Shown here piece by piece: positions 7,496 to 12,930 of a stretch of 31,246 nt of DNA. The notes under the pieces are model-generated. The model made no database searches and was not told the origin of the DNA. It saw nothing but the letters and a program-made list of their open reading frames with translations. The translations under genes were made by a program, and so were the position numbers. Source of the DNA: a virus; IMG/VR virus record IMGVR_UViG_3300046642_000283, positions 1 to 31,246 of that record. One strand, 5' to 3'. Position 1 is the first letter of the stretch. The number at the start of each line of letters is the position of its first letter.

Positions 7496-8155
7496 TTAGG
7501 CGAACTTAATTATAAAATTAATAGCGCAGAACGGAGGGAGATTATTATGCGCGCCGTCTCCACCCGTGCTGTTGTTGACAGTGATGCCGGTCACCGACGA
7601 CTCGGTGACCTGCGTAATATCCTGATGCAGCAGTGCGCCGCTGCCAGCCGAGTCAAAAACTGACCCAGGAGCCATGTTGTCGACGATTTCGTGCGTATGG
7701 CCGGGGTCGGTAATCGTATGGCTGTGCGCCGGCAGTTCAGCAGTGGTGAGGACATGCGTAGCCTCGCCGCCCATTGTGCCTATCGGCAGAGTGCCTCCAG
7801 CCTGGTAGCCGATCGGGAACCGGCTGCGCAGATCGGGCACGGCATTCGATGTTCCTGCGACCCCACCGAACTGATTGTTGAGGACCGGAGCGAGCAGCGG
7901 AATGTCGGTGTTGAGGTAGACCGTCCCGTCGCACAGCTTCCAGTTGGCCGGTGGCGTCACCCCGGCGAACATCTTGATCTCGCCGATGACGATGTTGTCA
8001 GCCAGGGCCTTCGCGGCATTCGCCGTGGTCTGCGTGTCGAACGCTAGCTGGTCGATCAGGTCGAGATCGGCGTTGAGCTTCACGCCCCACGTCGTCGGGC
8101 TGCCGCTAATCTCGGGCTTCACCCAGTGGAAATGTGCGGTGATCATGTCGGCCAT
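7496..8155 (-). CDS. Phage tail collar domain protein
   Basis: 219 residues. The segment GEIKMFAGVTPPANWKLCDG (residues about 58-77), followed by VPDLRSRFPIGYQAG and PAHSHTI...GHTHEI, is the signature of the phage tail collar domain (PF07484), found near the distal ends of fibres. The C-terminal NNLPPFCAINFIIKF is also typical of this family. The His pairs probably bind metal in a trimer. The start is TGATG-coupled to the tailspike stop, so the two are made together and may form one receptor-binding apparatus. Confidence 0.9.
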   Translation of the reverse strand: MADMITAHFHWVKPEISGSPTTWGVKLNADLDLIDQLAFDTQTTANAAKALADNIVIGEIKMFAGVTPPANWKLCDGTVYLNTDIPLLAPVLNNQFGGVAGTSNAVPDLRSRFPIGYQAGGTLPIGTMGGEATHVLTTAELPAHSHTITDPGHTHEIVDNMAPGSVFDSAGSGALLHQDITQVTESSVTGITVNNSTGGDGAHNNLPPFCAINFIIKFA

Positions 8156-11100
8156 CAGTGATATGTCCAGCTTGTGCCGTCGCAGAAGACGGGACGGTGT
8201 GTCGCGCCCCCACCGGCGACTGCCGTACCGTAGCCCTTGGCCGCATATGTCTCACCGTCATAGGCGACGCCAAAACCAACCGTAGTTGCGTTGCAGGGGG
8301 CCAAGCCAGAAACATTAGCCAAGGTCGCAACTGGCCAGCTTGTCCCTGCGGCGTCGTTGGCGATATGGGCAGCCTGGCGCGATTGCATAAACATGGCTTG
8401 CCAGCCGCTCGTCGCAGCAGCGACGGCGGGGGCCTGAAACGTCAGCGTCGTACCTACGCATGAAGCAAGATCGCCGACAGGCTTCCGATCATCGAAGTTG
8501 GCGTAGTCGATTGGCGTCCCTGCCGGAAGCGCGGGCGAGGGGCAGGCGGCGACCGTGGCTGTCGTCGCGCCTACCGCCACGGGCGCAGAGAACGTCGTCG
8601 TGAAAGCCGACGCCCATGACCATGCCAAATTGCCGCCGGGGGTAGGTTGCCGATTAAAACGAACGTCACCTTCACGGTGACTATCATTAGAAAAAGCGGC
8701 TGTAGAAATGTCTATGGTCCGCTCTCTTCCCACCCCATAACTTTCCGCGCTTCCTATCGCGAAGCCATAAGGAGCCACAACCCCAGTGGGGTCATATCCA
8801 GCGTATCCGGAGGTTGGTATCCATAAAAAACTATTAAGAGTTGACCCAAGCGTCCAAGCCCTAACAGAGGGGTCATACTTTAGAGCAAAATCGTCATTCG
8901 GAGAGCCGTTAAAACAGGTAGTAGACATACTGAACAGGAGATCGACGCCGCCAACTATTCCAAGGCATGGCGCTGGGCCGCTTGTTACACTGAAATTAAT
9001 CTTATCACTAGCGGCAACGCCAGGAGAGGCGACTGGGTTTGAAATTGTCACGTTCACAGCGCCGCGATTGACGGCTGTTACCGTTGTCCCGCTTGGGATC
9101 GCCGTCGGATTGGTCAAATCGGTAATGGTGTAGCCCGAGGCAAGCATCCCAAAAATGGATCCGAGCGAAATTGTAGTCCCTCCGACCGCAGTAGGGGCGT
9201 TCGTCGTCTCGATCTTGGAGAAGTAACCCCCATAGGTAAATTGTCCTTGGTTGCGTCCCCCCGAGCCTAACAAAGCGGTGCCAAAGATACCCCCAACGCC
9301 AATCGACAGCATGCTGTTCTGGTTGGCTATATCAAGCGGAATTGTCGGCACGCCAATATTTACGTTGCTATTCACGTCGTATCCTAGACAGATGCCGTCC
9401 GTGTATTGATTGGACGCCCAGTAACCACCGATAAAAACACTGGTGTTAAAGCCACATAACGAAAGAAGGCTATACTTAGCGACATCGTTCTCGGGGCTGT
9501 TTGTATTCTCATTGACGTATGTACTTTCAAGCGTGCAGCTCTCCACAATGTCGGAGATGAAATTACGACCATAAATATTCCCCATACTCAAACTTGGCGA
9601 GCAATCTGACCCGGTTACGTAGCGCCCTATGAGGCCGTCCATAAACGCGCCGTTTTCATCGGAGCTGTTGGCGCATCCGGTATGAAACCCGCCACCCTGA
9701 TCGCAATACAATTCAAGCTCGATTGGAAACATCTGCACCATAGCGGAGCGCGTGCCCGCGCCAGTTCGCCGCATAAGCCCTGCGTTCAGCGCCCAAAGGT
9801 TGTATGTCCCGGTTTTGCCGGTTAGGGCAGGCGAAAGCTGACTGGACGCCGCCATCGTGCTCATAATCACGTTATTCTGGAACGCCAGATTGAAGCTCGC
9901 CCCGCTTCCTGCGCTCAGACCGCCCCCTGGCGTCCATGTCGTTGCGCCGGGCGCAGGCCACGCCCCGTTGCACTCGCCAGCACTCGCCACCCCAGTCACG
10001 GCGGTGATCACGCCACCGGAGGCCGTGACGTTGAGAACGGGATTGACCCCAGCAGGATGCGCCAAGCCGTTATAGGGGCCGCAACCCGGCCCGCTCCACG
10101 TCATCGTCCCCGACCCAGTCCCATAACCGGAACCGCCGGAGTTCACCATGGGCGTTCCGGTCACTTGATTGTGCTGGCTCATGATGACCGTGCCGAACAC
10201 AAACGCCTCGGACCAAATCCACGTCCCGACTTTCAACGGACGCCGGCCGCCAGTGACAACAGCGTTGCTGCTCCCGGCGGTCGTCGTGACCTGGTATTTC
10301 TCGTTCGCCGGCAAGCGATAAAGCGCCGCCGCCTGAGAGGCCGGAGCGCCAAAAATGGTTTCCTGCTTCCCAATCACATAAGGGGAAGCCAATGTTATGT
10401 TTTGACCCGATGTCGTTCCCGCCGAAACCGACTGGATGTAAGCGCCAGGCTGGAGCAGAGGAGCGCCGTTGATTGCGCCGGGACCAATAGCGATCACGCC
10501 ATCGTTAGGAGCGAGAAGGGGAAAGGGGCTCCCAGGCCAACCTATCGGCGGAGCCGGGTTCAGGTTCCTGAAAATATTCGAGCCCGTGTCGCCGTTGCCG
10601 TTGGGGGGGCTGGAATTGACGCTGCCAAACTTACCCGCGGAACCGATGCCGCAGCCGATTATAGCGCTGCCCGTATCGGCCCCGCCATCCGAAGACAGAT
10701 ACCAGCCTTCTTGTATGACCCCCGGCACGCCCGCAGGAAAAAGAAGCTGGGCCTTGGAGCCGAACTGGCTGCTGTTCGCCGCAGTCCCGCAGTTCAGGCT
10801 GGCTCCTTTCGTCAGCTCGAACGGTTCGCTGAAATAATAAGTCGTGTATGTCGGCCCGAACGTGGCTGGAAAATATATCTCCGGCCCTGTCGGCCCTATA
10901 TTGGGCTTCCCAATCGCCAGTATCATCGGGCCGACGAACGGCGAATTATCGAAGTGGCTTCCATCATCCGGCTTCATCCCAAATTGCCGCACGTTGATGT
11001 TGCCGTTGGTCAAACTGAGTATGTATCGCCCCGGCGTGGAGGGGCTCTGCCCTACCGGCAACACACAAGAAAGGCCGTCTGCGGGGATCGTCGGGGTTCT

Positions 11101-11903: not shown

Positions 11904-12664
11904 GGCGCGTCCCATGCTTTAAAGCCGCTTGGCGCAGCGTACATTTGAGAAGCGGCAATGGAATGGATGGTTAGTACTTGTATGGAACTAGTTGATGCAG
12001 CAGCGTATAATGCTCCAACCGTCGCAGGCACAAAAGATACGATAGGCAGCGTTCCAGCAGCAGGATCACTGCTATTAACCCAAGTGCCTCTGAACGCTAT
12101 CCATATCTTCCCAGCAGCGAAATCAATCGCCAATCCCCATGTGCTTCCAACCTCCCCGTTTGGAAGGCCAGAATAATTTACCGTAAAACCAGAACTGCCG
12201 AAACCACCGCTCTGCGTTTGCAGCCCGACTGAGTAATTTGCCGATCCTAAATACGTATTGATCGGAGAGACATCAAAGCTAGCATTAGCAAACCCAAACA
12301 TCTGACCTGACCAAAAATCAGTGCTATCTATTGAGATTTCTATATACAACTTACCAGATGTTTTGCTGGTCGTATTTCGTACCGTTCTCCACCCGCTACC
12401 AGTTGAAGAAACAGTTAACCCACCATTGGACAGCGTTAATGGAGGCTGCGCCGCGACATCCGCTGCGCTCCATGTCGAAACAATCCCGAACGTGCCACCA
12501 AGACAGAGCTTTCCCGTCGTATCCATCGTCAGGTTGGTCATCGCGCCATTCGGCAACGCCCCGCCGCCGCACGAACTGACCACCAATGCTCGTGACAAGC
12601 CCTGCGTCTGCGCCATCGCGGGCACAGCAATCAGCAAAAGCAGGATGGCGAGCAGAAACCTCAT
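11900..12664 (-). CDS. Signal-peptide protein with Cys module and SPRY-like domain
   Basis: 254 residues. MRFLLAILLLLIAVPAMA-Q is a strong signal peptide. Residues 27-57 (VVSSCGG...LTMDTTGKLCLG) match a module in the preceding gene. Residues about 80-235 look like a SPRY/B30.2 beta sandwich: SGKLYIEISI, GQMFGFANASF, YSVGLQTQSG, WGLAIDFAAGKIWIAFRGTWV and FVPATVGALYAA appear in the expected order. SPRY domains bind proteins or sugars, so a receptor or surface-binding role is plausible. The DNA between about 12000 and 12450 is more AT-rich than its surroundings. Start and stop are both ATGA-coupled. Confidence 0.78.
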   Translation of the reverse strand: MRFLLAILLLLIAVPAMAQTQGLSRALVVSSCGGGALPNGAMTNLTMDTTGKLCLGGTFGIVSTWSAADVAAQPPLTLSNGGLTVSSTGSGWRTVRNTTSKTSGKLYIEISIDSTDFWSGQMFGFANASFDVSPINTYLGSANYSVGLQTQSGGFGSSGFTVNYSGLPNGEVGSTWGLAIDFAAGKIWIAFRGTWVNSSDPAAGTLPIVSFVPATVGALYAAASTSSIQVLTIHSIAASQMYAAPSGFKAWDAP

Positions 12665-12930
12665 TTCTTGGGCTCGGGGAGGCCCGTAGGCGGCTTTGGA
12701 GCCTCGGGCGGTGTCTTTGCCTCAGACGCAGCCGGCGTCTGTCCTGCGCCTTCTGCGCCCTCCCTAAGCAGCGTCGTCGTCGAGACGCAGAGATAGCCGG
12801 CGGGGTTCATGGTCAGTTGGTGCAATTGACCGACCGTGTACGCCCCAGAGCCGCACGTGGCGACGACGATCGCCTGGCTCCAGGCAGGCGTAACAAACAG
12901 GAGCGCCGAAACGAAAAGAAGATGCTTCAT
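12661..12930 (-). CDS. Small exported protein with Cys module
   Basis: 89 residues. [19 protein letters not shown] is a typical signal peptide. The mature part begins with VVATCGSGAY...LTMNPAGYLCVS, the module also present in the next gene, and ends in a Pro/Lys-rich tail (KTPPEAPKPPTGLPEPKK). The two cysteines could form a periplasmic disulfide. The gene is ATGA-coupled on both sides between the adaptor and the SPRY-like protein. Function unknown; export to the periplasm or envelope is a reasonable inference. Confidence 0.75.
   Translation of the reverse strand: MKHLLFVSALLFVTPAWSQAIVVATCGSGAYTVGQLHQLTMNPAGYLCVSTTTLLREGAEGAGQTPAASEAKTPPEAPKPPTGLPEPKK

Follow-up and report, generated by a model that had tools for sequence, protein, structure and literature searches.

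Predicted signal peptides and even cysteine counts in podovirus tail-cassette proteins suggest export through the host secretion system

The usual teaching is that phage tails are assembled in the cytoplasm, and a signal peptide in a tail gene is readily written off as annotation noise. The 31,246-base IMG/VR record IMGVR_UViG_3300046642_000283 (the whole of which is referred to here as the window) raises the question of what such signals mean, as three genes of its podovirus tail cassette, P0001, P0002 and P0003, each begin with an apparent general secretory (Sec) signal. We consider it likely, judging from sequence, that the three products are exported via host Sec, cut by signal peptidase I (SPase I) immediately before a glutamine and disulfide-folded outside the cytoplasm, and that they are signal-bearing counterparts of virion-type or receptor-binding-type proteins in a fast-changing late tail cassette. 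This suggests that some phages route tail- or virion-type proteins through the secretion system of their host.

Signals were scored with a home-made rule based on N-terminal charge, a hydrophobic core and small residues at -3 and -1. The rule was devised with the three N-termini already seen, and its threshold is the score of the weakest of the three. Among the 1127 start codons in the six frames of the window that are followed by at least 45 open codons, only P0001, P0002 and P0003 match, which bears out the Sec-type signals, ending in A-W-S or A-x-A before Gln, that a preliminary description had reported for the genes at 12661, 11900 and 8155. All three proteins have the positive start, hydrophobic core and small -3 and -1 residues of an SPase I substrate, and when residues 2-40 were shuffled, the observed scores were equalled in 131, 0 and 33 of 20,000 trials, respectively. 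No lipobox Cys is found at the cleavage site of P0001 or P0002. P0003 reads AASC near its site, but the homologue in survey locus L031 reads AIC ahead of an identical A-x-A and Gln; as the lipobox is not kept there, a lipoprotein (SPase II) reading of the conserved C17 was rejected.

A more trivial explanation would be that the hydrophobic stretches are chance sequence or the product of a wrongly chosen start codon. The P0001 ATG overlaps the adaptor stop codon (ATGA) and is preceded by GGAG, and the P0002 ATG overlaps the P0001 stop codon in the same manner. The open frame of P0003 continues upstream, but its start at 11556 lies 3 nucleotides past the preceding stop, and its first 60 codons hold no alternative start codon. 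Relatives do not conserve Met17 of P0002. True starts downstream of the hydrophobic stretch, which the preliminary description had named as a reason to doubt the signals, are therefore ruled against by the overlapping stop and start codons, and the N-terminal signals stand.

The distribution of the signals was examined in 81 loci, consisting of the window and 80 loci picked by adaptor homology alone. Strong signal genes lie between the adaptor and the gp10-like gene in 21 of the 81, a count made after nine weak matches had been discarded by eye. The total rises to 27 once phrog_22789 proteins that escaped the rule, or whose genes sit a short way upstream of the adaptor, are included; this number contains near-duplicate contigs, and open-ended loci could add more to it. 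As controls, 296 core structural genes could be tested across the 81 loci, and none has a signal at the homologous start, nor has any of 94 structural-region genes from five cultured or named relatives. The cleavage site is regular, with Ala at -3 in 51 and Gln at +1 in 44 of 58 signal-bearing proteins. On the adaptor tree the signal label switches at least seven times on well-supported branches, indicating that the signal comes and goes with the cassette, and between close relatives signal-bearing genes alternate with signal-less genes of receptor-binding type. The rule does produce false positives: in its relaxed form it matches 50 of 19,743 plus-strand starts and 15 of 13,278 minus-strand starts in these loci, the latter figure giving its noise level. 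Nevertheless, given the overlapping starts, the conservation of signals at the same start in homologues, the empty controls and the cysteine parity described below, we regard chance or a wrong start codon as an extremely improbable explanation.

Exported proteins of E. coli favour even numbers of cysteines, and those of Burkholderia do so less strongly (PMC7678975, citing earlier work). After signal removal, 47 of 50 dereplicated, complete signal-bearing proteins have an even Cys count (p=1.9e-11). When counted by homology family it is even in 26 of 28 (p=1.5e-6), and this is the safer figure because the proteins are related by descent. Structural genes (41 even, 71 odd) and signal-less open reading frames of the same slot (41 even, 59 odd) served as controls, and the difference in parity between signal-bearing and signal-less proteins of the slot is pronounced (Fisher p=5e-11). 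Median Cys density is 2.0% in signal-bearing proteins, compared with 0.5% in the structural controls and 0.7% in the signal-less proteins of the slot. For P0001, P0002 and P0003 the mature counts are 2, 2 and 20. It is difficult to see how this pattern could arise if the proteins stayed in the cytoplasm or kept their signals. Signal and parity provide independent evidence, and the two agree across many protein families.

Parity also speaks to cleavage. An odd number of cysteines lies within the signal in 13 proteins, 11 of which turn even once the signal is removed, and with the signal counted just 38 of the 50 are even. Because counting the signal spoils the even parity, it is probably removed from the mature proteins. 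Alternatively, the hydrophobic N-terminus could stay in place and anchor the protein in the membrane or the virion, or act as a signal-anchor-release element, and hydrophobic phage N-termini of the latter type are known (PMC6116005). However, the A-x-A before Gln is very regular and parity is best with the N-terminus removed, making an uncleaved anchor unlikely.

P0001 and P0002 have an N-terminus in common, made up of the signal and about 30 residues with two cysteines that end in TMDTTGKLC or similar. Homologues of P0001 lie immediately 3' of the adaptor in L011, L012, L013, L023 and L031, and gene 1 of L031 consists entirely of the signal plus a two-Cys peptide of 30 residues. Over 30 residues, the mature P0001 proteins of the window and of L012 do not differ, yet their signals are only 22% identical, indicating that the function of the signal is kept but not its sequence. 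Elsewhere in IMG/VR the module is joined to diverse C-terminal parts, nearly always with a recognisable signal, and its carriers include window-like podoviruses and a second phage group, between which no other similarity was detected. In the second group (L006 7118-16290, also L003, L005, L008, L010 and L020) three to five signal-bearing genes are clustered and come after a 245-residue 'VNIVNAGTLGGG' protein; no cultured-phage match was found for two of these genes. One record of 58,225 bases, IMGVR_UViG_3300001167_000001 (L003/L004), carries a module gene near both ends, at 475-651 and 53152-53328, perhaps through a long terminal repeat or overlapping assembly ends.

Exported members are assigned to virion-type families: tail spike/pectate lyase, SGNH esterase, SPRY-like and phrog_22789. 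Two signal-bearing proteins of L100 contain pectate-lyase-type domains with matches to tail or tail-spike PHROGs, and in L067 the module is joined to an SGNH/SASA esterase. The P0002 homologue of L067, a neighbour of the esterase that combines module and domain, has a twin-arginine (Tat)-type signal, MRRRDILGG, as read by eye. Other signal-bearing proteins gave collagen, TIG or arabinofuranosidase-like matches, some of them below the cut-off. For P0002 itself, an AlphaFold model with a predicted local distance difference test score (pLDDT) of 54.6 has SPRY domains as its best, though weak, fold matches (E about 0.04), and one tblastn match is annotated SPRY. Signal-less proteins of L032, L072 and L107 contain the SPRY-like part as well; a list of 'non-signal' homologues holding some uncurated signal-bearing proteins was left out of all counts. 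A possible C-terminal motif, VFCDGTSW as opposed to a Cys-less form in cytoplasmic fibres, was dropped for want of sufficient cases.

P0003 had been called the tailspike in the preliminary description. Size, position and family resemblance are consistent with that label, but P0003 has no confident Pfam or PHROG match, no PDB sequence match was obtained, and the AlphaFold model (pLDDT 26.9) is unusable. Matches to spikes or pectate lyases came only from other exported proteins of the slot, those of L100, and no N-terminal virion-attachment domain was recognised in P0003. Given the poor models of P0003 and P0002, we limit structural claims to the SPRY hint. Relatives of P0003 in L034, L096, L013 and L031 likewise bear signals. 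Scans able to pick up only fairly close relatives gave no homologue of the exported module or of P0003 in bacteria, plasmids or cultured phages. This bears on the suggestion that the proteins or their domains were captured from the host, as secreted host genes carried as morons. Export signals are indeed typical of host genes; however, the domains belong to phage virion-type families, the genes keep strictly to the tail cassette and the same scans returned no bacterial or plasmid homologue, so the suggestion was not borne out and we think capture very unlikely.

A link to the phage particle comes from phrog_22789. Gp13 of Sinorhizobium phage phiM5 is given in its GenBank record as detected in the phage particle proteome, and it matches phrog_22789 at 5.3e-43, placing it by PHROG match in the same family as exported members from L044, L096, L052, L072, L095 and L037 (3.5e-8 to 3.7e-3). 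Gp13 has neither signal nor Cys, whereas the exported members have a signal and two cysteines, one near each end. L095 holds tandem copies, at 8711-9034 and 9040-9423, the former signal-less with one Cys (the first Cys missing) and the latter with a signal and two.

Conserved signals, A-x-A sites followed by Gln, even mature Cys counts and the Tat-type signal on one P0002 homologue together give good support to the export first proposed for these proteins. In the scheme we envisage, host Sec, or occasionally Tat, would carry proteins of the P0001, P0002 and P0003 types out of the cytoplasm, SPase I would cleave them before Gln, they would undergo oxidative disulfide folding in the periplasm, presumably of DsbA type, and they could then act on the cell envelope or its glycans. 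As the final step we tentatively favour attachment to progeny virions at or after lysis, where the proteins would serve as stabilised accessories for receptor binding or decoration, on account of the late tail cassette position and the phiM5 comparison. Periplasm-matured virion-type proteins that join particles at lysis, an option absent from the preliminary description, fit that comparison at least as well as the uses offered there, namely receptor blocking, superinfection exclusion or release of a free depolymerase.

The main alternative, which we hold to be a real possibility, shares the export step but has the proteins act as free effectors in the periplasm, on the cell surface or in the lysate, be it as adhesins that mask receptors, as factors of superinfection exclusion or as enzymes that cut glycans. 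Enzyme-like domains are present, and a collar protein with an ordinary N-terminus is already among the gene products of the phage. Against free effectors, the genes belong to the late tail cassette and are coupled to the adaptor through ATGA, they alternate with signal-less receptor-binding-type genes in close relatives, and one exported family has the phiM5 homologue recorded as a particle protein. Superinfection exclusion fits less well than the other free roles because of the placement late in the tail cassette.

Several observations weigh against the interpretation that we prefer, export followed by docking. Tail proteins normally assemble inside the cell. The spike matches of L100 begin at profile positions 188/757 and 172/612, so that the usual spike N-terminal part is absent, arguing against virion attachment and in favour of free action. 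The two-Cys module is common to two otherwise dissimilar phage groups, which a host-directed role fits better than binding to one particular tail. The virion evidence from phiM5 concerns one distant family, seen in loci other than the window. Finally, all support is sequence inference, and the signal rule was our own rather than SignalP. It is a real possibility, though less likely than not, that some tailed phages routinely use a two-compartment virion assembly comprising Sec/Tat export, periplasmic disulfide folding and docking at or after lysis. If true, a secretion-dependent step would be added to the phage life cycle, the odd Cys-rich proteins of tail cassettes would be accounted for, and a signal together with an even mature Cys count would be a simple test for exported phage proteins in metagenomes.

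How do these proteins compare with known systems? Like P22-like and pectate-lyase-type spikes and receptor-binding proteins, they occupy a cassette adjacent to the adaptor and collar, some members contain pectate-lyase-type domains, and the N-terminus is conserved while the C-terminus is variable. Unlike known spikes, they start with a predicted cleavable signal, are Cys-rich with even counts and have no recognised ordinary tail-binding N-terminus. Superinfection-exclusion and lysogenic-conversion proteins of the envelope, such as Llp of T5 and Cor, are also phage-encoded and exported to the envelope, but as a rule each is the product of a lone gene, expressed early or from the prophage, that lies away from the tail cassette, where the window genes sit. 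Lys44 of phage fOg44 is an endolysin with a signal peptide that is exported by Sec (PMC6116005), and hence a phage protein that passes through host Sec by means of a cleaved signal; the window proteins differ in belonging to the tail cassette, not to the lysis enzymes, and in there often being several per phage. Sec-exported phage proteins (endolysins and conversion proteins) and tail spikes are therefore already known. The open-access literature searched did not yield any account in which tail proteins regularly carry signal peptides, nor one of signal-bearing, even-Cys proteins that recur in tail cassettes.

The structural module of the window runs on the minus strand from terminase, portal, scaffold and major head protein to the adaptor and tail genes. 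Following the head genes the order is SU10-type adaptor, P0001, P0002, a Gly-rich gene, P0003, collar-domain protein and gp10-like protein (Table 1). By terminase, the nearest cultured phage is Ochrobactrum phage vB_OspP_OH (52.5% identity over 88%), making an alphaproteobacterial host likely.

Table 1. Positions of the exported-protein candidates, their parts and neighbouring genes (window coordinates unless a locus is named)
Feature	Position	Strand	Basis or remark
P0001, 89 residues: signal peptide, 2-Cys mini-module (C26, C48), Pro/Lys-rich tail	12661..12930	-	
P0001 signal peptide	12877..12930	-	home-made rule
P0002, 254 residues: signal peptide, 2-Cys module as in P0001 (C32, C54), SPRY-like C-terminal domain	11900..12664	-	
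P0002 signal peptide, MRFLLAILLLLIAVPAMA then Gln (mature QT)	12611..12664	-	home-made rule
P0002 mature 2-Cys module (VVSSCG..LTMDTTGKLC), common to P0001 and a second phage group	12503..12610	-	
P0003, 1133 residues: Cys-rich, spike-like, predicted exported; 20 Cys after cleavage	8155..11556	-	
P0003 signal peptide, MLRKIFLSLAFGLAASCAVA then Gln (mature QT); contains C17	11497..11556	-	
P0003 mature N-terminus, strongly conserved: Cys pair C74/C88, then GFYAPGDGG	11137..11496	-	
SU10-type adaptor (tail) protein, marks cassette start	12927..13553	-	PF24175 E=3.9e-21; phrog_2941
Gly-rich 117-residue gene between P0002 and P0003, without signal peptide	11562..11915	-	kept in L012, L013, L031
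Collar-domain tail protein, ordinary N-terminus (KPEISGSPTTWGVKLNADLDLID), without signal peptide	7496..8155	-	Pfam, PHROG
gp10-like protein	5925-7493	-	Pfam/PHROG
MNKLVLSTALLAAIGATPAHA-type family members	L079 from 33; L080 from 2275; L088 from 15; L077 from 1952	+	

The 117-residue protein encoded between P0002 and P0003 contains a run of glycines, and its position is kept in relatives. A further signal-bearing family of about 215-239 residues, with N-termini such as MNKLVLSTALLAAIGATPAHA followed by TLQIEV, is encoded in several survey loci, some 8 kb upstream from the adaptor, and matched no PHROG of known function. No integrase was recognised among the window open reading frames scanned, and a DNA methyltransferase (phrog_363, E=2e-69) is encoded on the plus strand at 27690-28469.

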